Assembly (NCBI GenBank): GCA_002205965.3
Contig: NADL03000486.1
Span: 409,275 to 473,274 of the forward strand
Origin: Kappaphycus alvarezii
Lineage: Eukaryota; Rhodophyta; Florideophyceae; Gigartinales; Solieriaceae
DNA: 64,000 bases
Direction: 5' to 3'
Shown here: positions 18,298 through 63,800 of the stretch, in pieces
How positions within the stretch are numbered: the stretch's first letter is position 1
Layout of the letters: the number at the start of each line of letters is the position of its first letter
The notes under the pieces: model-generated
What the model was told of the DNA's origin: nothing
What the model saw: the letters and a program-made list of their open reading frames with translations, nothing else
The model's database searches: none
Position numbers and translations under genes: made by a program

Positions 18298-18948
18298 CTA
18301 ATTACGTCTCTTCTCGCCGAGAAAGGAAGCTCTCCTACGGTGCTTGTTACTGCGCAGATGAGTCTCTAGGTCGATCTCCTGGGCGAAGGTAATGTCGCAA
18401 TCAGTACACCGCGGAGGATCCTTGCTTTCCCTTAACCTTTGTTCTGCCCTTTGGTGCCTCCCACCGCCTCGTGCACAGCTTTTTGTCCGGAACTGACGAA
18501 CTCGATGTCGCAGATGCGACAGTAAAACTTAGGCTTTTTGCCTTTCTTATTCCTCTCCCTTCTCTCCCTGTCTGTTGCGACTTTAAAAGCTGTGGTACAG
18601 ACAAGGTCAATGCGGGCCTGGGCCCGGGAGGAAGTAGCCACGGAAGAGGACCCAAGGGCGGTTGTACGGTGCGACGGACGGGACGAAGGCTGTGCAGAGC
18701 GAGGGGTTGTCTTGAGTAGCTAGAGGCTTGGGAAGGAGACCCGTTCCGGATGGAGACCTGTTCGGATTCTTCGGACCCCTCCTCGGCCTCGTCGTCAATA
18801 AGGGATGCCTAGGGTAAGCTGTGATGGCAGAGCTCTCCCCTTCGGTAGATCTGTTGACGAGGCCTTCCCTTTCTTCCCTCCGACGGAGTTCCTGATACCT
18901 TTGATGATCCTTCGGGGTGCGTAGTGGCTTCCTTAACCCTCCAACCAT
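18298..18948 (-). pseudogene. zinc-finger ORF of the 3' LTR, frame-broken copy
   Basis: The same gene as 24659-25312 but split into at least three frames by single-base differences in homopolymer runs: one G fewer at about 18479, about 18705 and about 18806. The zinc-finger Cys/His residues themselves are retained. Either a decayed copy or an intact one with homopolymer miscalls. Confidence 0.8.
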
Positions 18949-19156
18949 TCCTCGAAGTTCCAGGAAGGTTTTTAGAGTATAGCAGTCACTGAGGGTATTG
19001 CCCCCTTGAACTTCGAGCTAAGCACCGAAAGTCCAAAGAGACAAGGGACACCTGCAGTATAATGGGTATTGCCCCCTTGAACTTCGGTATGCACACCGTA
19101 AGTCCAAGGAGACAAGGGACACCACTGCCTAGAGGACAACAAGGAGTCGGACGGCA

Positions 19157-19292
19157 ACGTTTTGGAGTGGGGTTTTTGGATGTGGAGGTTTTGGGTGTGG
19201 GGGTTTTGGAGTGTGGAGGTTTTGGGGTGGAGGTTTTGGATGTGGGGGTTTTGGATGTGGAGGTTTTGGGGTGTGGAGGTTTTGGATGTGGT
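19157..19292. repeat. G-rich GGTTTTGGATGTGGA minisatellite in the 3' LTR
   Basis: About eight imperfect 15-18 base units of GGTTTTGGATGTGGAG type. The plus strand carries many GG/GGG/GGGG runs separated by TTTT or TGT, so G-quadruplex formation is plausible. The 5' LTR copy (25519-25654) has a different unit arrangement. Confidence 0.85.
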
Positions 19293-19338
19293 ACTGGCTT
19301 TTTCTTGTCGGTCGAGGCTCACACCCCGGTCGACCAGC

Positions 19339-19348
19339 CTTTATATAG
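19339..19348 (-). promoter_or_regulatory. TATA box of the gypsy-1 3' LTR
   Basis: CTATATAAAG on the minus strand; the same sequence is at 25702-25711 in the 5' LTR. Confidence 0.55.
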
Positions 19349-19606
19349 AGATTCGCAAATTACTAAAACGCACAAATTGCTACTAAATTCCTAGCAAAAC
19401 ATAAAAGTAGCCCTTAGACCCCCCTATTCGCCTGTTTTGAGGCGCCTCTACTGTACTGTTGTGCAGTACACGCCATTTGGCTCAGAGCCATGCACAGTAC
19501 TGTACATGGCTCTCGTATCCCGAATTTGTGGCCATGTACGGTACTGTACATGGCTCTCGGACCATAATTTGTGGCCACAGGACACCGGCCACTGTGAGCC
19601 ACAACA

Positions 19607-24440: not shown

Positions 24441-24658
24441 AATAGTGCTATTTTTCTGTTAAGCACTGGAAGGGGTTCAGTTTTTCTTTCGCACCTCTAT
24501 TTGAGGGCTTCTAATTTTATTTTGTTTGTTTGTTTTCTTTTTTTTTTGTTTGTTTTCTTTTTTTTTTTGTTTTCTTTTTTTTTTGTTTTCTTTTTTTTTT
24601 TTTTTTTTTTTTTTTGTTTTCTTTTTTTTCTGTTGTTTTTTTAGTTCAATAAAATACT

Positions 24659-25312
24659 CTAATTACGTCTCTTCTCGCCGAGAAAGGAAGCTCTCCTACG
24701 GTGCTTGTTACTGCGCAGATGAGTCTCTAGGTCGATCTCCTGGGCGAAGGTAATGTCGCAATCAGTACACCGCGGAGGATCCTTGCTTTCCCTTAACCTT
24801 TGTTCTGCCCTTTGGTGCCTCCCACCGGCCTCGTGCACAGCTTTTTGTCCGGAACTGACGAACTCGATGTCGCAGATGCGACAGTAAAACTTAGGCTTTT
24901 TGCCTTTCTTATTCCTCTCCCTTCTCTCCCTGTCTGTTGCGACTTTAAAAGCTGTGGTACAGACAAGGTCAATGCGGGCCTGGGCCCGGGAGGAAGTAGC
25001 CACGGAAGAGGACCCAAGGGCGGTTGTACGGTGCGACGGACGGGACGAAGGCTGTGCAGAGCGAGGGGGTTGTCTTGAGTAGCTAGAGGCTTGGGAAGGA
25101 GACCCGTTCCGGATGGAGACCTGTTCGGATTCTTCGGACCCCTCCTCGGCCTCGTCGTCAATAAGGGGATGCCTAGGGTAAGCTGTGATGGCAGAGCTCT
25201 CCCCTTCGGTAGATCTGTTGACGAGGCCTTCCCTTTCTTCCCTCCGACGGAGTTCCTGATACCTTTGATGATCCTTCGGGGTGCGTAGTGGCTTCCTTAA
25301 CCCTCCAACCAT
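24659..25312 (-). CDS. LTR-encoded protein with two U1/JAZ-type C2H2 zinc fingers
   Basis: 217 codons, ending at a TAG at 24659-24661, lying wholly inside the 5' LTR and in the same orientation as gag. Residues 1-135 are charged and Ser/Arg-rich. Finger 1 is C144, C147, H160, H166; finger 2 is C182, C185, H198, H204. Both have the CX2CX12HX5H spacing of U1C/matrin/JAZ-type fingers, which in known families often bind double-stranded or structured RNA. The C-terminus is basic (KHRRRASFLGEKRRN). A TATA box 390 bases upstream would make this the first ORF of the element RNA, with gag second after an A-rich spacer of about 220 bases. Capture of a host gene by an LTR is the simplest reading. Function unknown; an RNA-binding or packaging role is only inference. 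Confidence 0.8.
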   Translation of the reverse strand: MVGGLRKPLRTPKDHQRYQELRRREEREGLVNRSTEGESSAITAYPRHPLIDDEAEEGSEESEQVSIRNGSPSQASSYSRQPPRSAQPSSRPSHRTTALGSSSVATSSRAQARIDLVCTTAFKVATDRERRERNKKGKKPKFYCRICDIEFVSSGQKAVHEAGGRHQRAEQRLRESKDPPRCTDCDITFAQEIDLETHLRSNKHRRRASFLGEKRRN

Positions 25313-25518
25313 TCCTCGAAGTTCCAGGAAGGTTTTTAGAGTATAGCAGTCACTGAGGGTATTGCCCCCTTGAACTTCGAGCTAAGCACCGAAAGTCCAA
25401 AGAGACAAGGGACACCTGCAGTATAATGGGTATTGCCCCCTTGAACTTCGGTATGCACACCGTAAGTCCAAGGAGACAAGGGACACCACTGCCTAGAGGA
25501 CAACAAGGAGTCGGACGG

Positions 25519-25654
25519 CAACGTTTTGGAGTGGGGTTTTTGGATGTGGAGGTTTTGGGTGTGGGGGTTTTGGAGTGTGGAGGTTTTGGATGTGGAGGTT
25601 TTGTGTGGGGGTTTTGGATGTGGAGGTTTTGGGGTGTGGAGGTTTTGGATGTGG
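25519..25654. repeat. G-rich GGTTTTGG minisatellite in the 5' LTR
   Basis: The same array as 19157-19292 with a different number and order of units, the main length difference between the two LTRs apart from poly(T) tracts. Confidence 0.85.
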
Positions 25655-25701
25655 TACTGGCTTTTTCTTGTCGGTCGAGGCTCACACCCCGGTCGACCAG
25701 C

Positions 25702-25711
25702 CTTTATATAG
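25702..25711 (-). promoter_or_regulatory. TATA box of the gypsy-1 5' LTR
   Basis: CTATATAAAG on the minus strand, upstream of the minisatellite, the LTR zinc-finger ORF and gag; the likely core promoter for the genomic RNA. Confidence 0.55.
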
Positions 25712-25976
25712 AGATTCGCAAATTACTAAAACGCACAAATTGCTACTAAATTCCTAGCAAAACATAAAAAGTAGCCCTTAGACCCCCCTATTCGCCTGTT
25801 TTGAGGCGCCTCTACTGTACTGTTGTGCAGTACACGCCATTTGGCTCAGAGCCATGCACAGTACTGTACATGGCTCTCGTATCCCGAATTTGTGGCCATG
25901 TACGGTACTGTACATGGCTCTCGGGACCATAATTTGTGGCCACAGGACACCGGCCACTGTGAGCCACAACAGTTTT

Positions 25977-37405: not shown

Positions 37406-38005
37406 GTTCGGGATGCTATGACCGCTATGCGCACTCAAAACGCCTTCCTAGGCGCAATTTGGACGAAACGCTATGCACACATTAACCGCCATTGAAATGT
37501 TTACGCTCAATGCACACATCACATATCGAAAGAAATATGTACATATTAAATATGGGTAATGTAAATTATCCTTAGTGTACGGTAAAACGGGAAATAACGT
37601 CCATTTAGAGGCGTAAGAAGCCCACATAAGCCTCCGTTTTGTATCAGTAATTGTGCCTTACAACCTTGAAACACAGTGAACACAGTGTAAATTATACTGT
37701 ACATAGCAATGTGCAGCAAGTACATTGCTAAGTGTGCATTAATATTTTGTAATGTGCAACGTAATTTCTTGTACATAGCAATGTACAAGACTGTACATTG
37801 CAATGACTGCTTCACGTAAGGAGAGCGCATTGGACATTGGAAGCCTGCACATCGACACATAGCAATGCGAGCATAGCTAAAGCCGATGCGCACATAACGC
37901 TTATTAATGTACGCATCATGACATAACAATGAATTAACTCATAGAAGGTATGTTAACATTGCATTGCGCAATGCACACATTACCCATATGTTACGCACAT
38001 ATCAC

Positions 38006-38504
38006 AACGCGCTATGCACATGTGCACATAGCACATGCGCTATGCATACATTTCGTAAATACAATGCACATATCACAACGCGTTATGCACAATTTTATTA
38101 GTCATGTGTACATAGCACATGCGCTATGCATACATTTCGTAACTGCAATGTACAGGTCACAATGCGTTATGCACACATTGTACATGGTCATGTGCACATT
38201 GTATATGCACTATGCATACATTTTGTAAGTGCAATGTAAACAGTACAATGCGTTATGCACAAATTGGACATGGTCATGTGCACATTGCATATGTGCTATG
38301 CACAAATTGCGGAAATGCAATGTACAGATATCAATGCGTTATGCACACATTGCACATGGTTATGCACACATTGCATATTCGCTGCGCACACATTTCGCAG
38401 ATGCAATGTACGCATTTCAATGCCTTTTTGCACACATTCCAATGTGTTATGCACACATCGGACGTAGTTATGCGCACATAATACATGGGCTAATGCACAT
38501 ATTA
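38006..38504. repeat. 86-bp subterminal tandem array
   Basis: Units start at 38006, 38077, 38161, 38247, 38333 and 38419, with spacings 71, 84, 86, 86 and 86. The unit core is AATGCGTTATGCACACATTG, followed by the self-complementary words CATGTGCACATTG and TATGCATACATTT and then GTGCAATGTA. Related, more diverged words continue left to 37490 and right to 38676, and resume at 39155-39330 after the solo LTR. Confidence 0.85.
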
Positions 38505-38676
38505 CACAATTCAAAAGGACACAGTGCAATATATGGTGTACAAATCACACAAAAATACGCAAACATAGCATGTGCGTTATGCACACATTGCGCAGATGCA
38601 ATGTATATATTACAATGTGTTTTGCACACATTTCATATAGTCTTTTGTACATAGCATATGCGCAATGTTTGCATAG

Positions 38677-39150
38677 TGTTGTGGACAATTTGGAATGCGG
38701 GGGACACTTGGGCGAAGCACTGTACTCGCCTGGTGAGAACGAGGGAAGCTCAAGGTTAACTAGAGGAGAACAGCGGCAAGGGAATTAGTTGGAGGGTTGG
38801 AAGGGTCGGAGGTGCGGGGGTCGAGATATCTGTGGCACATACTGTAAGTACTGTGTCGCACCTCGCCCGCACTGTATGCCACCCGAAACCCTCACGTATT
38901 ACATGTGTCTGCTTCTAGAAACTTCGCTGGTACTGTAATGTAGCTCGTTTATTTTGACACTGTACAGTGCAGTTTATAACACCCCTAGCGAGAGGGATAG
39001 TAGAGATAGAAAAAGATACAACAACATCAACACTTTTCCAAACTCCGGCACACCCTATATCCCTTACTCGATCACCCATCACCCCCCCTCCTCCGCGTCA
39101 CTCTCTCTTCCCGAACTCACGCGCGCGACCCTACACTCGCGCCCTCAACA
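38677..39150. mobile_element. solo LTR of a third LTR family
   Basis: 474 bases starting TGTTGTGGAC and ending CCCTCAACA, flanked by a perfect 5-base duplication CATAG (38672-38676 and 39151-39155). The subterminal repeat array continues on both sides, so it inserted into the array. It contains TACTGTAA/TACAGTGCAG words and TTTATAACACCCC (about 38973). The first eight bases equal the gypsy-1 LTR start but the rest differs. Confidence 0.85.
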
Positions 39151-39399
39151 CATAGCACAGGGTCTATGTGAACATCACAATGCGCGATGCACACATTGCC
39201 CATTTTCTGTCCACAGGGAACTATTTTCAATTTACTCTCTGAAAATTGTAATATGTGCATTGATTTCGGCTATATGTGCATTGCAATTAAAAATTGGACA
39301 TTGCGAATTTTGTTTGTGCATAGGCGATTTTTCCGTGCATATAGGGGATTTCAGTTCCTCCACAATCACTGCAGTCCGATCCATACCGCGTCGCGCTGT

Positions 39400-49668: not shown

Positions 49669-50300
49669 CATTTTGGGCAATGTACACTAAATTACCAACT
49701 CTACGTAGCGAACTGCATTTTGGGCAATGTACAATAGATTAACAACTTTATATAGCGAAACAAAATGTGTGCATAGCACATAGCTATGCACACATTGCAA
49801 AACGTTATATGCAAAGCGCATATGCATATTACAGGTAAACGGGGCTTTCCGCGTGTACCAACGCTGTTTCTACATTATTGCAGTAAGTGTGCAGGGCTCT
49901 TTCATGCAATGTACTTATTTAAAACAATGTTTGCATAGAAATATACTATGTGCACATTGCATTTTGGCCAAAAACACTACAATACCAACTGTACGTAGCA
50001 AAATACAATGTGCGCATAGCATATTCCCATGAACGCATTGCAAAACGTTATGGGCAAAGCGCATATGTACATTACATGTGTTCCGAGCTTTATGCATTAC
50101 CCAACGCTATTTGTACATTACTTTTGGATGCATGCAGGGCCCATCCATTCAATATACTTAGTAAAATCAATGTCTGCATAGCTAGTGGCTAAGTGCACAT
50201 TGCATTTTGGGCAATGTGCAGCATTGTATGGTATGTACAAAGCTAAATGGAATGTGTGCATAGCATATGGTTATGAAAGCATTTTGTGAGTAATGTTGGT
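49669..50300. repeat. right subterminal repeats: 47-bp duplication and 243/244-bp tandem units
   Basis: Two 47-base units start CATTTTGGGCAATGTAC at 49669 and 49716. Then larger units start AATGTGTGCATAGC at 49764, 50007 (AATGTGCGCATAGC) and 50251, spacings 243 and 244. Each contains GCATTGCAAAACGTTAT and TGTGCACATTGCATTTTGG. They share the TGTGCA/TGCACA vocabulary of the left-end 86-bp array but have a different unit. Confidence 0.8.
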
Positions 50301-51023
50301 TGATATTAGGTCATACGTTTCCCACAAGCAATGCATGTATACGGCACAGCTATGCACACATTACATTTACCGATGTACATGACCTTCAAAGTTCTTTTGC
50401 ACCTGGGTAATGTGTACATAACACATTGCAATGACCACACTAAAGTAATTTACATGGCGCTAGCAATGTGCGCATTGCACATGTAGTGTTCACATGGCGT
50501 TTTATCTGACACATTGCAACTCTAAGGCAAAATCGAGTTATGTAATGTGCGCATTACATCTGCCTATGTATAACAATACTGCATGCAAATTGTGCGCACA
50601 TGACTAAACAAATGTGCACATAACAGTAAAGAATTGTACGTTGACCATGTTCAAAGTGGGTGCACAATGCCCAATGTACGCATTACTTTAAACTTAAAAG
50701 TCGTAGTACTTACAAGTATCAGATGCTCAACTATCTCATCCTTTATGGTTGCTCTGTTTTACATTGCATACTCCGTCATGTACACATTGATATTTACAAA
50801 TCCCCTAGGCTGTACATTGGGATGCAATGTGTGCATTACAATGTACACTACATTTAAATGATTTCTTTCACAACTTTAACTACATGTAAATGACTTTAGA
50901 AGCATCCCACTACCTTCCAATAATCCCCTCTAATATTCTCCAACCATTTTTGAAATCTCTTACTTGCACATTGGATTTTCACCTGTAATTTTGTACATCG
51001 CACCTGATCATTGGATTCCGGTT
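50301..51023. other. right subterminal zone, scattered TGTGCACA-type words
   Basis: Diverged repeats (AATGTGTACATAACACATTG, AATGTGCGCATTGCACAT) up to about 50860, then unique AT-rich sequence to the right terminal repeat. No gene. Confidence 0.55.
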
Positions 51024-51712: not shown

Positions 51713-52161
51713 TCAACGACTGGACGGACACGCCCTTGAGCTCTTATTTCCAGAGGAAGAGGCTGCCGAGGCCCTTAAACGATAACGGTGACGTTTCTTC
51801 TTCGTAGAATCCGACAGCGTGTATGGAATCTTTATTTTACGAGGCGGGACCTCTTGACCATTCAATGGAACTAGACGGCGCACATCGACGATTTTCAAAT
51901 AATCGCATGGGTTCTCCTCTCCAAAAAAAATCTTGAAGGATTCTTCGGATAATCGCATAGCGTACTTCTCGGCGCAGTCGTAGATAAAAATTTGGGGGCG
52001 TCAAGACAAATTTAATGCGGCGATCCGAGCCGTCCGATAACCGACGCAACATAAAGTCCGCGGACAGAGGAACTGGTCAAGCTGCGCACCCATGCTGCTT
52101 CGATTGAAGATTCTACTGCTCCGCAAAGGCTATTTATGGTTCTTCCGGAAGACCCTCGTTC
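51713..52161 (-). pseudogene. repeat family X, copy 3, C-terminal part (left of gypsy-3)
   Basis: FIYDCAEKYAMRLSEESFK then IFFGEENPCDYLKIVDVRRL (51980-51850) is nearly the same as LIFDCAEEYAMRFCEASLK...GEEDPEDFLKITDVRR of copy 2. Upstream on the minus strand the gene is cut by gypsy-3 at 52162 and resumes at 63801. Confidence 0.65.
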
Positions 52162-52166
52162 TGGTT

Positions 52167-52850
52167 GAGGTATAAACCCGTTAGGTTTCACTTCTCTCTT
52201 ACCTAACGGACGTCTCCGTTCGGGAAAGGGAAGGACCTCGGTAGATTGGTAGAGCGTTAGGTAGGTCTGCGACCAGCGAGGGACCACCGAACGGAATAAC
52301 AAGGGAAACACAAGACAGAGGCTCGCTCACTCTCGGGACGAGCTAACCGTGCCGCGGTTGGGGGAAATACGCGGAGACGGTGACGGCGCGATACAGGCCA
52401 GAGGGGGACTATTAAAACAAGGAATAACCGAGCGGTAAAGGAAAAGGTAAAAGTAAAACAGGGAACTCCAAGGTGGAAGGGTGCTTACCTCTTTACCTGA
52501 CGGGCACCGTAAAGGAGATCAAGTTAAATATCTGTGAAGTCCGTACGGAGTCTGATTGGACCTGGCACTAGACCCAATGGTCCCGTGCATACAGGTGTCA
52601 ATTTCTACTAATTATCATACGCATTACTAAATTATACCCTACTGTACTCTCCACAGTCCTGTAATTACCTTACGGATTCCTCACCCCGGCGCGGTGTACA
52701 CTGCTGTACGCCCTCACCTTTGCCACGTGGTCGCCGAGCGGGTCAACGCGTGAATCGCCAAACAACCGAACGGCCGGGTGATTCTCCCTCGGATCATTAT
52801 AAATTCAGCCATCCCACTCACCGTGCGGTCACTTCTCTCACTATACCACA
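52167..52850 (-). repeat. gypsy-3 3' LTR
   Basis: 684 bases. CCGNNCGG occurs at 52216, 52287, 52428, 52540, 52734, 52766 and 52821, seven in 684 bases. Confidence 0.95.
52798..52804 (+). promoter_or_regulatory. TATA box facing the antisense gene
   Basis: TATAAAT on the plus strand inside the 3' LTR, 247 bases before the ATG at 53051. A CT-rich leader (52905-52975) follows. The core ATTATAAAT is nearly symmetric, so it could serve either strand. Confidence 0.45.
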
Positions 52851-52862
52851 GACCCCCCACCT
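52851..52862 (-). other. gypsy-3 polypurine tract
   Basis: AGGTGGGGGGTC on the minus strand directly before the 3' LTR start (TGTGGTATAG). Confidence 0.75.
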
Positions 52863-53050
52863 TACCTCTGCGCACGTCCGCGGGCGTAAGTCATCCATAC
52901 TCCTTCCTCTCTGTTCTCCTCTCTTTCCGCACGGTCCTCCGTCTCTTCCTCTCTGTTCCTCTGCGCATGCCCTCTCCGCCATCAACATCACTCCCCTTTC
53001 GCAGCCCATTTCAACCTACTGCTCGGAGAAATCGTCGCAACTCTCTCACC

Positions 53051-55128
53051 ATGCCGACTGGACAAGATACGCCGTCTCAACCTCTGACATCTTCCAACCC
53101 AGTTCCTTCCGTTCGGTATGACCCTGAGCAATGGGGACGGAGTGGGGGGACCTGCCGCCGATTCCTCATCAACTCCGTCCGGTGGTCAAGCAGCGCTACA
53201 GTACGCACCCCCGTCCGGAGCTTCAGTTCAAGTCATCACTTCCCGTCGGCCGCCTCCGAGTTTGCCGGTTCTCCCCGGGCAAGAGTTGGACCATCGTGTT
53301 GGTCGTGGGGATTCTTTCCGTGCGGTGCAGGTCCCGATGGGGGTGGACGACTTCATTCGTGGGCATCAAAAGGTACTGGATGCTGAACGGTTCGCTGCCA
53401 TACCACTTGTCCAACCACCGTATCGGAAGAACGTCAAGGGCCGAGAGCAGTCCTGGCAGCAGCACTGGGCTCACATTGGTGTGATTCTGGAAGCACCGCC
53501 CGGACTGGACTCTGCCTGGATCCGCTGCACTGGCGAACTTGGTTATACCGAACGGGTTGTTGCTCTGATTACAAGACATCGCTGCCATACTCATCCGATT
53601 TGTCCATCTCCGGAGTTTGTCTGCTTCGATCAGCCCTACGACCGGTCCATCTTTTGGTTTGCCGATCGGAAGCGCTGGGGTGAGTCGGCCTTTACCGAGC
53701 ATCGAATCCGCACTCGTCAAGGACAACTTCATGCACCAGGCACACCGAACGGAATTTTTCGACGTACCCCTCATCTGCGCGCGAACTTGTACATCACGAC
53801 TCCGAACGGATGGGACGAACTCGAGGCAACCCGCAGCTTGTGCATCCCTACTCCATCCGTTTTTGTGTACTTCTCTCATTGCCTGCTGCGTGAGCCTCAC
53901 CGTTCGGATCGTCGCCTGACGGATATACTTTGGACTGTTGCTTTGTCCGAGTATATCGTGTTCGCCGGCTTGGCCATCCTCGAAGCGGCATACTTCGGTA
54001 TTACTAACTTTGTCCGTTCGGAAGATCCTCGTCTCTACAGTCAAGAAGGTGATGTACCGGGCGGTGACTGTGGTCGTCTCTTTCCAATTCCCGAGCGGTT
54101 GATGCGCGGAATAGAGGCATTCGGCATCGAGAACATCGTGCGCGACTCTGCTTACCGACCGGACTACGCAGTGGCTATCTTCCGTCACTTGCGCTGCATC
54201 CAGTGGCCCGCGTACCCCGGTTTGCGGCTACAACTGGGAAGAAGACTCATTAGTACCGATTCGGGGTTCTGACCATCGCTATCCAACACTTCCTCCTCCG
54301 CCAGAAGTCGGTTACAGTTCTCCCGTTCGTCGCGAGGTCCTGAAGAAGTCCTGGCCCGTGTGGTGGTCGTTACACACCGCCTCCGTCTCCCTTCCGGTAG
54401 AAGTTACTCCAGCGCCTTCCCATCCCTGTCCTTCTGCGAGCAAACCGAGAGGTACCGCGAAGCCATCTACTCCCTTGTCCGGCGCAACGAAGGCACCTCC
54501 TCTCCGTAGCGTTCCCGTTCCTGTTCCCGAACCGGTAGTAGTGGAGCACTTGACAAACGCGAGGTGAGTCTGCAGTGCCCAAGCCGAGGCGCAACGAGCG
54601 GAGAAAAAAAGTTGAAGACGACCGTCCGGTGGTGAAGAGATTCAGAAGTCTGTACAGAAGAATGCGGCTACGGAGCGCGTTGCATCTCCTCGAGCTTTTC
54701 CGTCCGGTAATGCGGTAACTCCCGTAATGGGTGTTCGCATTGCACGTCCTACAACTCCGACCGGTCCTCCTCTACCTGTCACTCCTTGGAAACCAGACTA
54801 CGAAAGCAGTGATTCGTCTGCGGCGGTTTCTCATGATCATCCGGGTGGGGCGTTGATTTCTGATACCACGTTGGTCTCTTCCGAAACGGTGATCCTACTT
54901 CGCGAGATTCAAGCCGTCTGTCGCCACACTCGCCGTCCCGTTCCCGATTCGGTTGATGATGGTCTGCGTTTGTTACTAAGTACCATGATGGATGTGGACC
55001 GTTATCGGGACATCTTAGCTAATTTGCGAACTTCCGTGCGGGTGAGGCCAGAGTTGGGTGAAGATGCGGAGATACCATCCGAAACCGGAATTACCGATAG
55101 GGGTACCAAACGTCGTCGTCACCATTGA
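53051..55128 (+). CDS. antisense gene of gypsy-3, about 690-residue protein of unknown function
   Basis: On the strand opposite to gag-pol. The likely start is the ATG at 53051 in CACCATGCC (MPTGQDTPSQPLTSSNPVPS). After a one-base shift near 53130 a long frame (53118-54272) has protein-like composition: HQKVLDAERFAAIPLVQPPY, WAHIGVILEAPPGLDSAWIR, PEFVCFDQPYDRSIFWFADR, LRANLYITTPNGWDELEATR, LSEYIVFAGLAILEAAYFGI and IPERLMRGIEAFGIENIV. A second shift near 54240 leads to a Pro/Ser-rich linker, a basic stretch KPRRNERRKKVEDDRPVVKR (about 54580-54640) and a C-terminal part (54727-55128) with DTTLVSSETVILLREIQAVC ending GTKRRRHH. No known domain recognised. Basic segments fit a nuclear, nucleic-acid-binding protein, but that is inference. 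The frame shifts are single-base and may be sequence errors. CCGNNCGG sites run through the gene. Confidence 0.6.
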
Positions 55129-56256
55129 TAGTACCGAGCGGTAACTTTGTCGTTGCGAATTAGCCGATCGGTAGTTACTCTCTTTTCTACTTCGTTGTAA
55201 AAGTTACCGACGTTCTGGTTCAAACTGTGTTTTCCCCTTTTCTTCTATTCCGTACGGTGATATCTTGACTTCTACTGCTCAGTTTCCGCCTCTGTCAACG
55301 CCAGTGAGGGGGGGCACCCTCCTCTTTAAAGTGGCAAGAGTTCAGGTCCGTAGCGTTAACCGTTTTAGAATGGGAGCATTTTCTTTTTTCCCAACTTTGC
55401 CGTCTTCTTCACCGTTCGGTAGACTTCATGTCCTTCGGCATAGTACAGTGCGGTGCAGGTACTCCTGGAGGCGTTTCGGTGTTTTCTGGTACAGTAACTG
55501 AACCAATAAACACGCATTATTAGTGGAGTCAGGGGGTTCCTGCACCTTATTGAACCAATCAAAAGTATCCCCGTGCGGTAGGTATAGAATCAACCATTCA
55601 TTTGCCTTCATTCTTGGCATCGCTCGGTCATTCCGCCTCCCGGTCTGTGTTTTCCTTCTTTTTGCACCATCCGTTGTTTTCCCGCGCGGTACTGTACGCA
55701 GGTGGCTAAGAAATAATAAAATTTCATGATACCGTACTGTACTTTTGCGCGGTTTTTCTGCCATCCGTTTTCGGTTTCCACTCTTTGCATTTTGACCGTG
55801 GCCGGTATAAAAAGTCTGTTGCCCACCCTTTGGCTTGTCCAAACTCCGTCCCCTCACGGTTGCCTTTCCTCTTCCTCATCATCCTCCGTTTCCGTCCGGT
55901 TTCTCCCTTCCCCTTGCACCATTTTCCGTTCGGTATACATCATCCTTCGGGAAAATACAGTACACTGCAGAAAGAGTGGTGCCCTCCAGAAAGAGTGTCC
56001 GTTCGGAAAACAGTAAAGTAAACACGTCCCAGAAGGGGCGTACGTTCGGTAAGAGCCGTGCGGAATTCGGGACAACCCAGAAGGGTTGGCCTACATGAGA
56101 TCTGGGACGCAGATCGGTACTTCTCTCTCATCACCGTCCGGAATACCAGCCTTGGGAGGCCATAACCGCCTAGTTGGACTATGTCCGATTTTCGTGAAAC
56201 GGCAAGTGACTCCGGTAACTAATTCTTCCACCACAATAAACTCATTCCCTGGACAG
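55129..56256. other. non-coding spacer between the antisense gene and pol, CCGNNCGG-rich
   Basis: About ten CCGNNCGG sites (for example CCGAGCGG at 55135, then CCGATCGG, CCGTACGG, CCGTTCGG, CCGCGCGG), CT-rich tracts (55850-55925) and repeated AGAAAGAGTG and CCAGAAGGG words at 55970-56090. No gene recognised. Confidence 0.6.
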
Positions 56257-59200
56257 TTAGGCTTGGGCCCGCTTTCGGAGAGGAAAAGAACGTTCGGTTT
56301 TACCCCCCTCCTTAGCTCGACGGCTCCGCCGGCGCCAATACTGACGTATTTGGTTTTCCGGGAGACCGTCAGCGGGTTCAAACGTATCCTCATCCGGGGA
56401 ATATCCGAACCAACGGACTCTGTACTCCATTCCGGTCTGTGTTTCGCGGTGAAACGATCTTGTCCACCACGTATTCCTCGTCCTCGTATCGGAAGGTAAT
56501 AAAGTAGGAGAATGCCGATCGGGAAGAATAGGTACTGTAGAGGACTCACCAGACCCAGGGGTAGGAACTGTAGACGTATCGGATAAACCAGATAAAGGCA
56601 AACGACCGCTCGGAACCTTAGTAACTCGGTCAATACTGACAGGAATAAGGAGACCATCCTGCTCAATGTAGACAACCGAGTCGGTAACTGATTTCACCAC
56701 GTACGGACCAGTAGTACGGGGAAGAAGCTTTTTCCTTCCCTCGTTTAGTCTCGCCTCGTCGGTGTCAACTTCTCCCGTTAACGGATCCTTTTCTGCTCGT
56801 TCGACAGGACGCAGAGCCCGTGGCGGTCGATCAACAAATACAGTATCCCCCGAACGGATAACCGGTCGGAATCTTACTTTCCGATCAAAGTCCTGTTTTG
56901 CTTTTTCCTGCGCGGTAGTCATCTTCAAGTTAGCTTTTTGTAAAGCATACCGAAGTCGGCGCATCGTCGCTCGTTTCAGCTGTACAGGAGTTAGGGTTTC
57001 ATCCGTAGCGGAGTCAGCCACTCGATCAATTGTTCCCGTAACGGTGATACTCGGCGGGTGTCGAGTTAATACCAAATCAAAGGGAGTAGTTCCCGTTACC
57101 CGGTGTACCTGCATATTGTAGGCGTAGGTCAATGGTTGTAAATAAAGATCCCAATCGGTTTGATGTTCTTCCACATAGTGACGAAGGCGCTGTACAATTG
57201 TCTTATTAAACCGTTCGGCTTGCCCATTAGTTTGAGGGTGATAGGCCGTGGTTAAGAAATGGCGGGACCCCAGCATACTGCAAACCGCATCAAAGAACTT
57301 AGCAGTAAACTGTTTCCCGTTATCGGTTAAGACATAAAGAGGGGCGCCATAAGCATAAACCCAATGGTCAAGGAACGCAGCTGCGACAACCGCGGCGGTA
57401 GTAGTTCGTAAAGGGATGCAACGAGTGAGCTTAGAGAACCGATCGGTGATAACCAAAATAAAGACAAAGCCACGAGTAGTCTTCCGTAGCGGTCCGAGCA
57501 AATCCATTGCGACAAATTCGAGGGGGCCACTAGCTGGGAAGAGTTTCATAAACTTCTGAAACTTCCGTACGGTTCCGCGGTTACGAGCACAACTAACACA
57601 ATCCCGGACGGTCATAAACACATCGTTCGCCATTTGTGGCCAGTAATACTCCCGCCGAAGGGAATAGTACATTCTAGTTCCGCCTGGATGACCGGCTAAA
57701 CGGGGATAGTGAGCCATATACAGTAACCGTGCTCGGAGCGACTTAGGAACAACTCGTTGTAAAGCTCCGTCCAATTTGGACTTTCGAACGAGAATACCGT
57801 ATCGGTCGAAGTCGAACTCTGAACCACGTTCACCGACTGCATTGGCCTTCCCTAGGCAGAATTCGTCCTTAGCTTGTTCAGCTAGGAATTCTTCCACCGT
57901 AAACGGGTTTGCAGGTTCATCAACCTCTGCAAGTGCCATTACCTCCGGTAGGCCAATAATTCTATTTTCCCCGAGTTCGGATTCCCAATATGCGACTACA
58001 GCGTCGTGGTAATCAAGCAAACTTTCGCTTCCAGCTTGTTCCGGTTCGGCGTTGCTTTCAACGATGAAACAGGGGACTTCATAGTCGATATCTGTGTCGT
58101 CTTCACCTTCCGTTCGGAGTCTAGATACACCATCAGCCAACTGATGCTTGATACCCGGGCGGTATTCCACATCATATTCATACTCGGCTAACCTCAACCG
58201 CCATCTCGCAAGCCGTCCGGATGCGTCGGCTAGATTCAAAATCCAACGTAGTGCATGGTGATCCGTACGGAGAGTAAACTTGTCGCCATAAAGGTAAGGT
58301 CGTAGAGTTAGAATTGACCAAACAACAGCTAGGCATTCCTTCTCGGTGGTTGAATAATTCTGTTCCGCTTTGGTCAAACTCCTACTCCAATACCCAACAG
58401 GCAGTTTGTCACCGTTCGGTTGTTCTTGTAGGAGTGTGCATCCGACTTGATACTCGCAAGCGTCAGTGTCCAATGTGTATTTATAACCGATGCGGGGTAA
58501 AGCCAGGATAGGTGGTGATACCAACTTCTGTTTCAGCGTCATAAAGGCATCAAATTCTTCATCATCTAGGATACCGAATTCGAACGGACTTCCTTTTCCG
58601 GTCTTCTTGTTCAGCGGCGCGGCTATCTTGGCGAAACCCTTGATAAACCGACGGTAAACGTTGCACATTCCTAAAAACGACCTTAATTCCGTCTGGTTAG
58701 TCGGTGGAAGCGCTCTTTTGATAGCATCGCAATTCCTGTTATCCACGAGGAGTTGACCCGGACGGATGACATGGCCCAGATACGCAACCTCTGCCTCGAA
58801 GAAGGTGCACTTCGCCAAGCGGAGCGTGACACCAGCGGCTCTTAAAAGGCTCAACACTTCTCTAACATGCTGAAAGTGTTCCGAAACGGTCTTAGAATAA
58901 ATGATGACGTCGTCCAAGTAAACAAGGGCATACTGCCACTTAACCCGTGAAAGGATTATATCGACAGCCCTTTGGAACGTCGCGGGAGCATTCTTAAGAC
59001 CGAACGGCATACGGGTAAAGCGAAACAAACCATGATGGCTAGAAAAGGTAGTCTTGTCCCTATCCTCTTCCGGTATCTCGACTTGCCAGTAGCCACTGTT
59101 ACAGTCTAGAGTAGAAAAGACCGTAGCCTCTCCCAGCGAGTCGATACACTCATCCATCCTTGGTATAGGATAGGAATCCCGTACGGTTACAGCATTCAGT

Positions 59201-59934
59201 CTTCTATAATCTATACAAAAACGTAAGGTGCCGTCCTTCTTCGGCGCGAATACGACTGGACTGGCCCATTCCGACTGTGTGGGCTCAATCACTCCGGCGG
59301 ATAACATTCGATCGATCTCTTTCTTCTCGAATTCTCTTGCTTTTGGCCCGGCACGGTACGGTTGTTGATAGATTGGCCTAGCATCTGGCGTGAGCTCAAT
59401 TCGATGCTTAGCTATATCTATCTTTCCGAGACGGCCAGTCCACATTTCGGAGAACTCGTCCAACAAATTGAGGACATCCTTTCTTATTTCTCTTCTTTCA
59501 CACGACCGCGGACACTGATCATGCCAATCTGGTTGCAATCCTTCTTGGCCGATCGGTCTGTCACTCGATGTATAATTACGTTGCGACTGCCAATTTGGTA
59601 CAGTCTTCTCGTCTCTGCTTGAACCGGTCGGTAAAATAGATTCAGAATTAGAGTCCTTACCCCCCTCCTTAAATGAGGTGCCATCCTGGCAGCGGGAAGA
59701 GTGACGGACAAAATCCGAGCGGGTGCAGGTAGAGCGAGACCCACGACTGTATTCTTGGGGAGTTGCAGTCTTACTAGAAAAATTACTCATTAAAACGACG
59801 AACGGCCGGTTCGGGCGGATGTCCATGATCCCATTTGCCATAAGGGCGAGATGTTTGATTAAGGGTTTGGGATGATTCTGGACAAGGCACAAACCACCGG
59901 TCGGACATTGAACACGAATTGAAACATGACTCAT
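56257..59934 (-). CDS. gypsy-3 Pol: RT, RNase H, integrase, chromodomain
   Basis: 1225 codons. RT: SEWASPVVFAPKKDGTLRFC (221-240), FSTLDCNSGYWQ with D277, RMPFGLKNAPATFQR, YLDD at 339-342. RNase H: YTLDTDACEYQVGC (485-499), E532, TDHHALRW (557-564). Integrase zinc-binding part: H742, H749, C779, C782. Integrase core: D811 (MDLLGP), D871 (LTDNGKQFT), E907 (AYHPQTNGQAERFN). A C-terminal chromodomain has its second half in this frame (YRVRWFGYSPDEDTFEPADG, LP) and its first half (YEDEEYVVDKIVSPRNTD, about 56490-56430) in another, so one indel lies inside it. Such chromodomains read histone methyl marks to guide integration. The start codon overlaps the protease stop (ATGA at 59931-59934). All catalytic residues are present. 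Confidence 0.95.
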   Translation of the reverse strand: MSHVSIRVQCPTGGLCLVQNHPKPLIKHLALMANGIMDIRPNRPFVVLMSNFSSKTATPQEYSRGSRSTCTRSDFVRHSSRCQDGTSFKEGGKDSNSESILPTGSSRDEKTVPNWQSQRNYTSSDRPIGQEGLQPDWHDQCPRSCERREIRKDVLNLLDEFSEMWTGRLGKIDIAKHRIELTPDARPIYQQPYRAGPKAREFEKKEIDRMLSAGVIEPTQSEWASPVVFAPKKDGTLRFCIDYRRLNAVTVRDSYPIPRMDECIDSLGEATVFSTLDCNSGYWQVEIPEEDRDKTTFSSHHGLFRFTRMPFGLKNAPATFQRAVDIILSRVKWQYALVYLDDVIIYSKTVSEHFQHVREVLSLLRAAGVTLRLAKCTFFEAEVAYLGHVIRPGQLLVDNRNCDAIKRALPPTNQTELRSFLGMCNVYRRFIKGFAKIAAPLNKKTGKGSPFEFGILDDEEFDAFMTLKQKLVSPPILALPRIGYKYTLDTDACEYQVGCTLLQEQPNGDKLPVGYWSRSLTKAEQNYSTTEKECLAVVWSILTLRPYLYGDKFTLRTDHHALRWILNLADASGRLARWRLRLAEYEYDVEYRPGIKHQLADGVSRLRTEGEDDTDIDYEVPCFIVESNAEPEQAGSESLLDYHDAVVAYWESELGENRIIGLPEVMALAEVDEPANPFTVEEFLAEQAKDEFCLGKANAVGERGSEFDFDRYGILVRKSKLDGALQRVVPKSLRARLLYMAHYPRLAGHPGGTRMYYSLRREYYWPQMANDVFMTVRDCVSCARNRGTVRKFQKFMKLFPASGPLEFVAMDLLGPLRKTTRGFVFILVITDRFSKLTRCIPLRTTTAAVVAAAFLDHWVYAYGAPLYVLTDNGKQFTAKFFDAVCSMLGSRHFLTTAYHPQTNGQAERFNKTIVQRLRHYVEEHQTDWDLYLQPLTYAYNMQVHRVTGTTPFDLVLTRHPPSITVTGTIDRVADSATDETLTPVQLKRATMRRLRYALQKANLKMTTAQEKAKQDFDRKVRFRPVIRSGDTVFVDRPPRALRPVERAEKDPLTGEVDTDEARLNEGRKKLLPRTTGPYVVKSVTDSVVYIEQDGLLIPVSIDRVTKVPSGRLPLSGLSDTSTVPTPGSGESSTVPILPDRHSPTLLPSDTRTRNTWWTRSFHRETQTGMEYRVRWFGYSPDEDTFEPADGLPENQIRQYWRRRSRRAKEGGKTERSFPLRKRAQA

Positions 59935-60590
59935 AGGGGTATTGTTACATGGGAGGCAAGACGAATCTTCCGGGATCGGGACTCAAAGGAAAGGGCTTGG
60001 ATAGACGTAGAACGTTTCGACTTTGTCTCCGTCTTCGGTAACGTTCTGCCAACAATAGTAACTGGTGGTGCATGATGAAATACAACTTTCCGGTCGGATG
60101 GTAAAATAGCGCGTACATGTTGATCAATAAATGTAGTACCCAGAATGCAATCGACGGCTAGATTACCAACCACCAGGAAACGAACACGAGTCTTCAATTC
60201 ACCGATACGGACATTAAGATCAAGAGTACCCAAACATCGGATGGGTTTATTTGAAGCGTCCAATAAAGGGGGTGCGGCAACCGAACGGATAGATGATTTC
60301 CAAGCATCCGGTAGGGTGCGCACATTCACGATATTTGGTCCCGCTCCGGTATCAAGGACAGTCGTTAAAGGAATCATTAACGACGGGTCCCGTCCAACGG
60401 TCATTGATACTTTGTAGTTGCGTTTCTTAAAGAAATAAAGAGAATCACCAGCACTAGAATCATAACGCAGAGAGAAATCAGACGACAGAGAGGAGGTCTT
60501 CCGTTCCGGTGTCCATCGAAGACCTTTAGAATTCCAAATCGGAAACGACGACGCCCCTACGCGTTTCCGGCATCGTTTTCCGACTCGGGG
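59931..60590 (-). CDS. gypsy-3 aspartic protease
   Basis: Open from directly after the gag ORF 2 stop (60591-60593) in the same frame; the first ATG is at 60404. The active site is TTVLDTGAGPNI (DTG), with the flap/C-terminal part FLVVGNLAVDCILGTTFIDQ. It matures Gag and Pol. Since it shares the gag ORF 2 frame and lies beyond a single TAA, expression by stop readthrough is possible. Pol follows with a 4-base ATGA overlap in the -1 frame. Confidence 0.9.
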   Translation of the reverse strand, partial: PRVGKRCRKRVGASSFPIWNSKGLRWTPERKTSSLSSDFSLRYDSSAGDSLYFFKKRNYKVSMTVGRDPSLMIPLTTVLDTGAGPNIVNVRTLPDAWKSSIRSVAAPPLLDASNKPIRCLGTLDLNVRIGELKTRVRFLVVGNLAVDCILGTTFIDQHVRAILPSDRKVVFHHAPPVTIVGRTLPKTETKSKRSTSIQALSFESRSRKIRLASHVTIPL

Positions 60591-62024
60591 TTATCTACTT
60601 GTCCCGGAAGGGAGTGTTTCAGTAATCCCCTCCTCGATAATGTTAACCGAATGCGGCGCACGGGATGGACCAATCTGCGGGGGTACCGCAGCGGAGTTGT
60701 CCTTGTTTGCCATAAAGCGGCGATAGTTTTGGCTACGGATCTGCATCAATTTCGACCGGTCGGTAGCATTCAAGTAAGGACAGACGACGTGGCCGGGATC
60801 CAAACAAAGACGACAGAATGGAGGTTTAGACCTGGACGGAGGGTTACCAGCGCGATTCACAGGAGTACTCACTGTATCGGCCGGCGAGCTTCCTTGAGGG
60901 GACTTCGGCTGCTGCATTGCTGCAGGTGACGATGGTCCGGACGGATAGAAACTCGAGGGCGGCGTTGAATACGTAGTCACGCTGTTACCCGTACGGTCAC
61001 CTTGAGTTAAAGCAAGAACTTCCAAATCTTCAACCCGTTCGGTCACGGTTGAACTGTCTTCTTGCGAAGGACTTTCGATCGTTAACGCCCTTCCCGGTCG
61101 GTCGCGTGGTTGAAATCTTGTCTCTTTCGTTAACGGGTAACTTGTTGCTATATTCGATACCGGTCGGCGAGCTGTACGATACCCTTCTCCCAATGCGTGG
61201 GCATGATTGACTACTGTCTGATAATCCGCATTCGGGTGAGTGGCGAGATACAGCCGCACCTGTTTGCAAGTGGCAGGCAACAAGCCATCTACGAACAACG
61301 ATTTCAACCTCCGATCGGAAAATACAGTACCGCAACGGAGAGCTTTGTTCCACAACATCCGGGAATAGGACTCTTCGGTCATTGAAGAACTTTGCTTAAA
61401 GTTCACAACTTCCGAATAGGCCATCGCGATTACCTCATCGGTTGCATACGTACGGAGTAGAAACTGAACCACTTCTTTGTACGAACGGAGCAACTCATGA
61501 TGGTTTCTATCCATCGCCATCGAACCGCCGGTCATACGAGCTTGCACTAGCACTTCGGCTTGTCCGGTGAGGTAGAATTGGAAACACCACATGGCGGCCT
61601 GCTCCGGTACGGAATTCATGTTACAAGCGTCTTTGAACTTGGCCAAAAAGTTCAAAACCGCGATCGGATCTGATCCAGAGAACATGTGCGGTCTCATCTG
61701 GATGTCTATCTTCTTTCTGTATTTAACGATACTCCTCGACGACCCGTGAGAATCTGCCGAACGGAGTTCCAAACGATAGGTCTTGTAGTTCACTGCCTTC
61801 GTGAACAACTCATTCAACGGACGTAGCGGCTTCAACTTCTTACTAGACCTCTTCTTTTTTCTTACCACGACGGGAGCTATCCGAACCGGACGACGACGAA
61901 CTGGATGAACTCGACGATTCCGAATCGGTACTCGCATCACTTGAATCGTGGGAACTCCGGCGACGGGAACCCTTCTTACTCTTCTTCTTCTTCTTGCGGC
62001 TTCGGCTCTTCTTCCGGCCATCAT
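60591..62024 (-). CDS. gypsy-3 Gag ORF 2: capsid and nucleocapsid
   Basis: 477 codons. A very basic N-terminus (residues 1-70). Capsid-type helices: FSGSDPIAVLNFLAKFKDAC, EQAAMWCFQFYLTGQAEVLV, LLRSYKEVVQFLLRTYATDE, SYSRMLWNKALRCGTVFSDR. One zinc knuckle, CRLCLDPGHVVC (CX2CX4HX2C, shorter than the usual CX4HX4C). The TGA of ORF 1 overlaps the ATG of this ORF (ATGA, 62021-62024). The third frame over about 62020-61860 gives a much more natural Ser/Lys-rich linker (RKKSRSRKKKKKSKKGSRRR then a long Ser run), so ORFs 1 and 2 may once have been one Gag with small indels in A-rich runs. Confidence 0.85.
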   Translation of the reverse strand: MMAGRRAEAARRRRRVRRVPVAGVPTIQVMRVPIRNRRVHPVRRRPVRIAPVVVRKKKRSSKKLKPLRPLNELFTKAVNYKTYRLELRSADSHGSSRSIVKYRKKIDIQMRPHMFSGSDPIAVLNFLAKFKDACNMNSVPEQAAMWCFQFYLTGQAEVLVQARMTGGSMAMDRNHHELLRSYKEVVQFLLRTYATDEVIAMAYSEVVNFKQSSSMTEESYSRMLWNKALRCGTVFSDRRLKSLFVDGLLPATCKQVRLYLATHPNADYQTVVNHAHALGEGYRTARRPVSNIATSYPLTKETRFQPRDRPGRALTIESPSQEDSSTVTERVEDLEVLALTQGDRTGNSVTTYSTPPSSFYPSGPSSPAAMQQPKSPQGSSPADTVSTPVNRAGNPPSRSKPPFCRLCLDPGHVVCPYLNATDRSKLMQIRSQNYRRFMANKDNSAAVPPQIGPSRAPHSVNIIEEGITETLPSGTSR

Positions 62025-62965
62025 CGGAACTTGAACTTCGAATTCCGAATCGGTACTAGTCTCCTCTTCTCGATACTTGCGACGGCGACCTTGAATTTCT
62101 TCTTACCGTGACGGGAAGGAGAGCGATCATCATCACACTCACCACGTCCGCTACGGTGTTTGGGACTCGACTCTTCATCATTAGAGTCTCGTCCCCCAGC
62201 AGGGTTAACCGGAAAGTACGGTTGTTTCACATCCATGGGTGGAACAGCCGACTCCCGTAAAGGACTTGTATTACCGTGTTCGGTGTTTTTAAACTGTAAA
62301 TGCCCAGACGGGCCTGGTAGACTCTTGGCGAGATTTCCGGTCGGTAGACTGCTCGAACTATCCGGTACGGGTTTAGACTCTTCGTCAGCTCTGAGTAATT
62401 CCTCGATGGGCATATTTGCAAAGCGCCTCATCAGAGCTGTAGTCTCCTCCCGAAGGAATGACATGACCATCGGCTCCGCAGCCTCGGCCATTATGTCATA
62501 CACCTTTGCTTGGAGCTCGGACTCCATAACCGAACGGACTTGTTCCTGCACCTCCTTCTTAACCATCTCCTGTACTTCGACCTTTAATTCCGAACGGATT
62601 TTCTTCTTCACTTCTTCTGTTGCATTATCAACTTCCGTACGGACTTGTGGACCCAGGGCATCCAATACACGCGGGACGACCTCGCTGTGTATCCACCGGG
62701 CCCTTTCCAAACCGATCGGTGATGTCATTCCGGACGGTGATGTCATGGCTCTTGCCAATCCACTGTCTCCGGACGGAGGTCCTGGAAACAACTGATAGGG
62801 GGCCGAAGTAACGGGGTCGGCGGCACTTGTCGGCGTCGCTTGGTTCCGTGCACGGTCATGCAAATACCGTTCCGGTTCGGCGAGCAGCTTCATCAGTGCC
62901 GACGGCGCACTGCGGGTGCCCTGCGAAGACTGGGAGCCTTCCGGGCGGTCTACGGGGGCGGACAT
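62021..62965 (-). CDS. gypsy-3 Gag ORF 1: coiled-coil N-terminal part
   Basis: 314 codons starting MSAPVDRPEGSQSSQ, 148 bases from the LTR. Residues 100-190 are a strongly charged helical stretch (VDNATEEVKKKIRSELKVEV, QEMVKKEVQEQVRSVMESEL) predicted to form a coiled coil, then a Ser/Pro/His-rich linker. Probably the matrix/multimerisation part of Gag. The last ~40 residues may be out of frame (see ORF 2). Confidence 0.8.
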   Translation of the reverse strand: MSAPVDRPEGSQSSQGTRSAPSALMKLLAEPERYLHDRARNQATPTSAADPVTSAPYQLFPGPPSGDSGLARAMTSPSGMTSPIGLERARWIHSEVVPRVLDALGPQVRTEVDNATEEVKKKIRSELKVEVQEMVKKEVQEQVRSVMESELQAKVYDIMAEAAEPMVMSFLREETTALMRRFANMPIEELLRADEESKPVPDSSSSLPTGNLAKSLPGPSGHLQFKNTEHGNTSPLRESAVPPMDVKQPYFPVNPAGGRDSNDEESSPKHRSGRGECDDDRSPSRHGKKKFKVAVASIEKRRLVPIRNSKFKFR

Positions 62966-63092
62966 CTTGACTTCGGTATCTTCTTCTTTGAAGTACCGAA
63001 CGGATAATACTGTGATTTTCGACTCTGCCTTCTCTTGTTTTCCGGTGGCGTCTCTTCTCGAAACCTAAAACCGTACGGAATTAACCAAAAGG

Positions 63093-63111
63093 GGTTCTAG
63101 GTCGGAGACCA
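63093..63111 (-). other. gypsy-3 primer-binding site
   Basis: TGGTCTCCGACCTAGAACC on the minus strand, two bases after the 5' LTR end. It would pair with a tRNA ending GGTCGGAGACCA. Tentative; no tRNA gene lies in the window to compare. Confidence 0.55.
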
Positions 63112-63113
63112 GT

Positions 63114-63795
63114 TGAGGTATAAAACGTTAGGGTTCACTTCTCTCTTACCTAACGGACGTCTCCGTTCGGGAAAGGGAAGGACCTCGGTAGATTGGTAGA
63201 GCGTTAGGTAGGTCTGCGACCAGCGAGGGACCACCGAACGGAATAACAAGGGAAACACAAGACAGAGGCTGGCTCACTCTCGGGACGAGCTAACCGTGCC
63301 GCGTTGGGGAAATACGCGGAGACGGTGACGGCGCGATACAGGCCAGAGGGGGACTAGTAAAACAAGGAGTAACCGAGCGGTAAAGGAAAAGGTAAAAGTA
63401 AAAAAGGGAACTCCGAGGTGGAAGGGTGCTTACCTCTTTACCTGACGGGCACCGTAAAGGAGATCAAGTTAAATATCTGTGAATTCCGTACGGAGTCTGA
63501 TTGGACCTGGCACTAGACCCCAATGGTCCCGTGCATACAGGTGTCAATTTCTACTAATTATCATACGCATTACTAAATTATACCCTACTGTACTCTCCAC
63601 AGTCCTGTAGTTACCTTCCGGATTCCTCACCGCGGCGCGTGTACACTGCTGTACGCCCTCACCTTTGCCACGTGGTCGCCGAGCGGGTCAACGCGTGCAT
63701 CGCCAAACAACCGAACGGCCGGGTGATCCTCCCTCGGATCATTATAAATTCAGCCATCCCACTCACCGTGCGGTCACTTCACTCACTATACCACA
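63114..63795 (-). repeat. gypsy-3 5' LTR
   Basis: 682 bases, about 98% identical to 52167-52850, with the same seven CCGNNCGG sites. Confidence 0.95.
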
Positions 63796-63800
63796 CTGGT

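Follow-up and report, generated by a model that had tools for sequence, protein, structure and literature searches.

To our knowledge, self-recognition of a mobile element along its length, and the way in which this recognition can alter and still work, are known mainly from the VANDAL elements of Arabidopsis. In these elements, motif binding and anti-silencing by VANC have been demonstrated, and the motifs of VANDAL21 are described in the excerpted text as lying mainly outside coding sequence, in tandem and in one orientation (PMC5735166). Here we analyze a 64,000-nucleotide stretch of DNA (the window), in which a Ty3/Gypsy-type chromodomain retrotransposon with long terminal repeats (LTRs), at 52166–63795, carries a short palindromic dyad, CCGNNCGG (CCGN2CGG, hereafter N2; N3 and N4 denote CCGN3CGG and CCGN4CGG), in genes and non-coding DNA, as well as an antisense (AS) gene beside pol. 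We propose, with a probability of about 0.5, a self-directed anti-silencing in which the dyads would be read by the element's own AS product.

Short words that mark self across coding and non-coding DNA occur in bacteria, where DNA uptake sequences, Chi, and KOPS are read by proteins of the cell. Unlike these words of bacterial chromosomes, the mobile element described here seems to carry both the word and its reader. HBZ of HTLV-1 is an antisense regulatory gene at the 3' end of an LTR element, and its product is a bZIP protein acting on host partners; we know of no self-motif along that provirus. HTLV antisense genes are mentioned in PMC11963269 alongside plant elements of the Retand/Grande type, which have an antisense open reading frame (ORF) between pol and the 3' LTR, with the TRP28 domain (PF04195) and a suspected role in DNA binding and regulation. 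The extra gene of our element has the same place and orientation. The Retand/Grande elements, however, belong to a non-chromovirus plant lineage, and a dispersed motif is not mentioned in the excerpted text (PMC11963269). PF04195 has no match in the three AS segments of the window copy or in the AS pieces of two relatives (L051 and L053).

The closest known analog is the VANC/VANDAL system, in which, as here, a short motif is dense in one element family, rare elsewhere, and changed between related families, and the element codes for a changing extra protein (PMC5735166, excerpted text). Since the VANDAL motifs are described as mainly non-coding, tandem, and same-oriented, the element is not a member of that system; unlike the VANDALs, which are plant DNA transposons, it is an LTR chromovirus. 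In the literature excerpts that our search returned, neither a motif of this kind in LTR elements nor antisense genes of red algae are reported.

By exact count the window holds 93 N2 sites, of which 84 lie in the element (counts made on 52179–63795), more than the 80 or so that an earlier note on this DNA had estimated by eye. Dinucleotide shuffles of the element (n = 300) yield a mean of 4.8, somewhat above the chance value of about 3 named in that note, and a maximum of 13; Markov models of order 2–4 yield means of 8.3–13.3 and a maximum of 24. Among all gapped trimer pairs with gaps of 0–12, CCG-N2-CGG ranks first (z 26.6; next 13.7). N3 and N4 are also enriched in the element (34 and 20 sites), and the reversed order, CGG-Nk-CCG, shows no enrichment there. 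The two central bases of the N2 sites, previously described as free, are A/T-rich (64 and 57 of 84), and the flanks are indeed frequently A/T (63/84 at position −1, 71/84 at position +8). A direct pair, CGG-N1-CGG, is mildly raised in the element (21 sites). The first 52 kb of the window contain 9 N2 sites, compared with 6.8 in shuffles (n = 20, maximum 12). Genome-wide, paired sites number 1256 versus 685 for the reversed control, these sites not being assigned to elements.

The element is built as follows.

52161–52165: target-site duplication CTGGT, left (sequence)
52166–63795, minus strand: Ty3/Gypsy-type chromodomain LTR element (LTR pair, domains, ends, and target-site duplication)
52166–52850, minus strand: 3' LTR with 7 N2 sites (LTR pair, site counts)
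52851–52861, minus strand: putative polypurine tract, sense GGTGGGGGGTC, inferred from its position adjoining the 3' LTR
53118–55128, plus strand: AS gene between the 3' LTR and pol (three ORF segments; substitution pattern by codon position)
55131–56256: spacer with 11 N2 sites (site counts)
56257–59934, minus strand: pol with reverse transcriptase, RNase H, integrase, and chromodomain, 20 N2 sites (Pfam domains)
59931–60404, minus strand: protease ORF (weak Pfam match, under the curated cut-off)
60591–62024, minus strand: gag ORF with 8 N2 sites (assigned by position; conserved in copies; no Pfam match)
62021–62965, minus strand: orf0, an extra ORF upstream of gag with 8 N2 sites; the second candidate for a binding protein
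63093–63111, minus strand: putative primer-binding site, starting TGG and adjoining the 5' LTR
63114–63795, minus strand: 5' LTR with 7 N2 sites (about 97% identity to the 3' LTR)
63796–63800: target-site duplication CTGGT, right (sequence)

With LTRs of about 685 bp that are about 97% identical, flanked by the target-site duplication, and with reverse transcriptase, RNase H, integrase, and a C-terminal chromodomain between them (PF00078, PF17917, PF17919, PF17921, PF00665, and PF00385 in pol), the element is a chromodomain Ty3/Gypsy LTR retrotransposon. The N2 sites are distributed as 7 in each LTR, 19 in 52851–55130 (13 of these within ORF 53118–54272), 11 in the spacer, 38 from pol to orf0, and 2 in the leader, close to the previous estimates of seven per LTR, about 18 in the antisense gene, and about ten in the spacer. 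Judged from the pol relatives of the element, the host is probably a red alga and not, as had been assumed, a fungus: the only organism names among the best 120 of 4003 pol matches are the florideophyte red algae Chondrus crispus and Agarophyton chilense. No relatives were found in viral_contigs. One pol relative in genome_contigs, at 37% identity in a bacterial metagenome-assembled genome, was not used.

The sites within the genes are not explained by codon use, as the earlier note had argued from their spread over reading frames. In 500 synonymous-codon shuffles per ORF, with the protein held fixed, the 20 N2 sites of pol compare with a mean of 2.3 and a maximum of 8, the 8 sites of gag with 0.9 and 4, and the 8 sites of orf0 with 1.7 and 6. 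For the antisense ORF, 13 sites compare with a mean of 2.0 (maximum 6), and for the last antisense segment, 4 with a mean of 0.5 (maximum 3). The short protease ORF is the exception, its 2 sites being not above synonymous shuffles (mean 0.2, maximum 2). In pol, the sites fall in all three frames (6/7/7). Codon use and composition were rejected as the cause of the dyads, since dinucleotide, Markov, and synonymous shuffles all fall short; neither the dinucleotide-preserving nor the codon-preserving shuffles that the earlier note had proposed as a check give similar counts.

The sites follow a spacing rule. Pooled over N2–N4, the 138 sites have a mean distance of 84 bp and a coefficient of variation of 0.58, in genes and LTRs alike; the mean is 85 bp in the part comprising the 3' LTR, AS gene, and spacer, where the shortest gap is 30, and 82 bp from pol to the leader. 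Only 6 of 137 gaps are below 30 bp, compared with 41 expected under Poisson. The same deficit of close gaps is present in 5/5 other CCG-type copies tested, with observed and expected numbers of 5 and 24 (C641), 16 and 30 (C567), 9 and 23 (C809), 5 and 17 (C111), and 3 and 12 (C669). It is weaker in two CC-N4-GG loci (18 vs 29 and 17 vs 31). A scan for helical or nucleosomal periodicity gave one weak value (11.0 bp, R 0.19), and no tandem array is listed within 52166–63795. Exclusion and spacing would be in keeping with a dimer that binds DNA and covers some 30 bp.

Even density and 30-bp exclusion, along with the position of sites inside the element's genes, also fit a protein of the element that reads them on unintegrated cDNA, as a coat or tag against autointegration, for nuclear import, or for packaging. 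We know of no LTR element that does so by a scattered sequence motif, and the excerpts from our literature search on this point contain none; we regard this explanation as unlikely.

Outside gag, pol, and orf0, the ratio of N2 to N3/N4 sites is 46:10, and inside them it is 38:44 (Fisher p = 2e-5). From the dominance of N2 outside these genes, N2 seems to be the optimal form, with N3 and N4 tolerated where the protein code restricts the choice. At the sites of the element, neither flank complementarity nor base-pair covariation exceeds chance. Because flank covariation is absent and CCG-Nk-CGG is enriched but CGG-Nk-CCG is not, the signal looks like a dyad read in DNA, not like a hairpin formed in RNA. 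A role in the genomic RNA, as small hairpins or protein sites for packaging, is accordingly very improbable: N3 and N4 could close a 3-bp stem, and the one-mismatch sites are strand-lopsided on the plus strand (ACGNNCGG 11 vs CCGNNCGT 1, small numbers), but the preferred N2 form is unable to make a 3-bp hairpin and the flanks do not pair.

Relatives of the element were sought by a pol search of the same genome (336 Mb), which gave 69 matches; 30 loci were fetched (L001–L030), of which L001 is the window copy and some overlap (L027/L028 on the same contig, L015/L020 on the same contig). Ten further copies were compared, of 11.6–11.9 kb each and in two pieces, with element ends not mapped, and distant families are covered by 5-kb or 2.8-kb stretches. 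When the window copy is compared with nine others, identity is higher at the core bases of the motif than either at other bases or at lone CCG/CGG, in 9/9 comparisons. In the five most divergent copies, core identity is 0.80–0.88, while it is 0.71–0.75 for other bases and 0.71–0.81 for lone CCG/CGG (for C809, 0.883 vs 0.750 and 0.806). Whole N2 sites are retained in 26/52 cases in C809, 11/22 in C567, 20/44 in C669, 17/34 in C658, and 14/26 in C827, whereas six-base controls of the same geometry are retained at 0.12–0.20 in these five copies (0.201 in C809).

The two LTRs of a copy diverge after insertion only. Pairs could be drawn from 6 of 11 copies, the other five yielding none, and there motif bases and other bases differ at similar rates (7/209 and 98/3332), a comparison that bears on the methylation-linked role raised as an option in the earlier note. 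Transitions, counted as a gauge of post-insertion protection of motif CpGs, affect 3/140 CpGs within motifs and 13/366 other CpGs, numbers too small for a distinction. Dyads that are kept between copies and yet neutral in LTR pairs fit a selection that acts while the lineage replicates but not on copies once they are inserted. The dyads are very probably selected DNA sites. A neutral origin, whether from composition, codon use, or a bias in mutation or conversion, would accommodate the decay of motif bases like others after insertion, and the GC and CpG of the element are somewhat above much of its surroundings. It is contradicted by the failure of all three kinds of shuffle, by the lower conservation of lone CCG/CGG in 9/9 comparisons, and by the avoidance of close spacing, and we consider it extremely improbable.

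Families differ in their dyad. Among palindromic dyads, one of the CCG type ranks first in 27/30 pol loci (23 with N2, 4 with N3); the other three are L019, L022, and L023. The earlier statement that other elements nearly lack the motif holds for the window, but many related chromoviruses elsewhere in the genome carry the same or a changed dyad. In C567, N3 outnumbers N2 by 78 to 19 (shuffle means 7.1 and 7.2), both in pol (20 vs 9) and outside it (58 vs 10). N2 and N3 are equal in C809 (41, 41), C669 also has an N1 form (11; shuffle mean 3.2), and the motif is weak in C821 (N2 8, N3 14). In four distant AS-bearing loci of two families (C646/C71 and C75/C635), the inner CpG is not required: WCC-N4-GGW reaches 41–46 per 5 kb (the two loci that were shuffled give means of 7.5 and 8.5), and the N5 form follows it. 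WCC-N4-GGW is also found in L019 (24; mean 8.2) and weakly in L023 (15; mean 5.3). In the pol tree, the CC-N4-GG loci including L019 form one clade, and L022 and L023 form another. In short, the dyad is of the N2 form in the window type and of the N3 form in C567, and a sister clade has WCC-N4/5-GGW. L022 (C771), a chromovirus with a pol identity of about 51%, has 13 TGGCCA (shuffle mean 1.3), perhaps a dyad of its own, although the non-palindromic GGCCGA and TTGGCC rank above it. Because non-palindromic pairs are sometimes on top in distant loci, and TAC-N-GTA reaches a z of 10.8 as window background, TGGCCA is a lead and not a result.

A host dimeric transcription factor could be the reader, the element having evolved a super-enhancer of host sites. 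The dyad does resemble a classic dimer site, and N2–N4 would be a plausible tolerance. With 138 sites at like density in gag-pol and the terminal part, however, the element goes well beyond the need of a promoter, and a switch of spacing and sequence between families in one host is unexpected from a single factor; such a reader therefore appears doubtful. A Zn2Cys6 protein, the candidate named in the earlier note, found no backing among the element's own products, as there is no Pfam match and no CX2CX6C...-type motif in the six frames of the element or of eleven related loci (L032, L038, L041, L044, L046, and L050–L055). What stands of that interpretation is the behavior of a dimer site, with dyad, preferred spacing, 30-bp exclusion, and conservation; what lacks support is the fungal setting, and the Zn2Cys6 class was rejected for the proteins of the element.

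A protein encoded by the element is the more probable reader, and the AS product is our slightly favored candidate. In the window copy, the AS gene comprises three ORF segments (53118–54272, 54115–54567, and 54616–55128), and AS C-termini are basic and resemble a nuclear localization signal (NLS) by eye (KRRRHH in the window copy; SKRPRHR and SKRSRHH in others). The first AS part lies antisense beside pol in 7/10 further copies (C513, C641, C680, C809, C567, C669, and C658), and 9/10 have AS in the same place and orientation when later parts are included, which adds C111 and C827. Conservation is higher in the AS frame than in the reverse one (85 vs 75% in C641, 52 vs 32% in C658). Third codon positions change most in 7/7 AS alignments from six loci, barely so in the closest (6, 5, 7). 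These patterns show coding constraint on the AS gene.

Matches to AS in the genome amount to 117 stretches, down to 24% identity, and to 115 with a distant member as query, stretches not being equivalent to copies; no match was found in positions 1–52000 of the window. The AS protein family in this genome appears large and deep, with open frames at 24–33% identity, and further motif types may exist. Outside this genome, no AS homologs were found among 5.8 billion proteins, within the word and length limits of the search.

The spacing switch in C567 coincides with a long AS branch (1.01, compared with 0.20–0.21 for the tips of C669 and C658), while its pol branch is ordinary (0.32, in a range of 0.30–0.33). 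Identities for C567 are 31% for orf0, 71% for pol, and 63% for gag. As alternative readers, orf0 and integrase or gag are improbable. In C567, orf0 has diverged no less than AS, and in the CC-N4-GG clade divergence extends to every protein of the element; on the other hand, pol and gag have ordinary identities in C567 despite the changed spacing, and orf0 was not detected in C658, which retains the motif, nor in C827 or C821.

For the AS product as the reader, we suggest the following mechanism. Selection would keep the dyads, over the full length of the DNA of a replicating chromovirus lineage in red algae, as binding sites for a homodimeric DNA-binding protein. With a half-site like CGG(A/T), the dimer would favor a 2-bp gap and accept 3–4 bp in coding DNA, which leaves less room for choice. 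The AS product is the most likely reader; this orphan protein, basic and NLS-like at its C-terminus, would cover or label every copy of the family. In a VANC-like anti-silencing, dense occupancy could hold the chromatin of the element open or unmethylated and leave host genes untouched. This last step, the purpose, is tentative, at somewhat under even odds, as anti-silencing is argued from the analogy with VANC.

Several observations besides this dependence on analogy weigh against our proposal. Unlike the VANDAL21 motifs, as the excerpted text describes them, the sites here are palindromic and scattered, lie also in gag, pol, and the antisense gene, and obey a spacing rule (PMC5735166). C111 and C827 have only later AS pieces, and in C821, where the N3 motif is weak, AS was not detected. 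Searches of Pfam (best hit PF03967, E 0.026, under the cut-off) and PDB gave, at their sensitivity, no significant match to the AS protein, and its single-sequence fold is unusable (predicted local distance difference test score of 32). Support for the position of C567 in the AS tree is weak (0.70), and orf0 diverges in this spacing-switch copy too. In C530, AS is 41–42% identical with a long branch of 0.62, yet the sites are of the N2 type (12 in 2.8 kb; shuffle mean 0.8), which means that the motif cannot be predicted from AS change alone. As to conservation, close copies show little or no excess (49/80 in C641 vs a control of 0.597, 42/68 in C680 vs 0.544), and conservation in C513 and C641 is slightly higher at the spacer bases than at the core.

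More broadly, it is about an even chance that red-algal chromoviruses use a self-labeling code, in which an antisense-encoded orphan DNA-binding protein and a cognate dyad, kept by selection about every 84 bp in genes and LTRs, would change in step, the dyad in spacing and sequence, whenever families split (CCGN2CGG, CCGN3CGG, WCCN4GGW, and possibly TGGCCA). Each family would then find and de-repress, or coat, its own DNA only, as an independent, retrotransposon-borne counterpart of VANC. Such a signal, at a density of about one per 84 bp, is imposed on the coding sequence of gag and pol. The element, with >100 dispersed dyads, and its sister families with shifted spacing or sequence form, in one genome, a natural mutagenesis series for protein–DNA co-evolution, and they lead to an antisense protein family that is large, has no relatives in the databases searched, and belongs to what is probably a red alga.

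Elsewhere in the window, the other long LTR pair (18063–19606 and 24440–25971) has one CCGNNCGG between its outer ends, at 21948. An ATG-N4-CAT dyad, mostly ATGYRYRCAT, forms two dense clusters at 37473–39187 and 49765–50827, which hold 41 of the 60 sites in the window. The sites in these clusters are often 21 bp apart and lie partly in tandem repeats of 86 and 243 bp; a second element might have its own arrayed motif here. TAC-N-GTA has 76 scattered sites in the window, often in TACAG-type runs such as GTACTGTACAGTAC, and is enriched in several other loci too; it looks like a genome-wide feature or microsatellite. The 1.5-kb LTR at 24440–25971 contains an ORF with C2H2 zinc fingers (24662–25312) beside long T-rich tracts.

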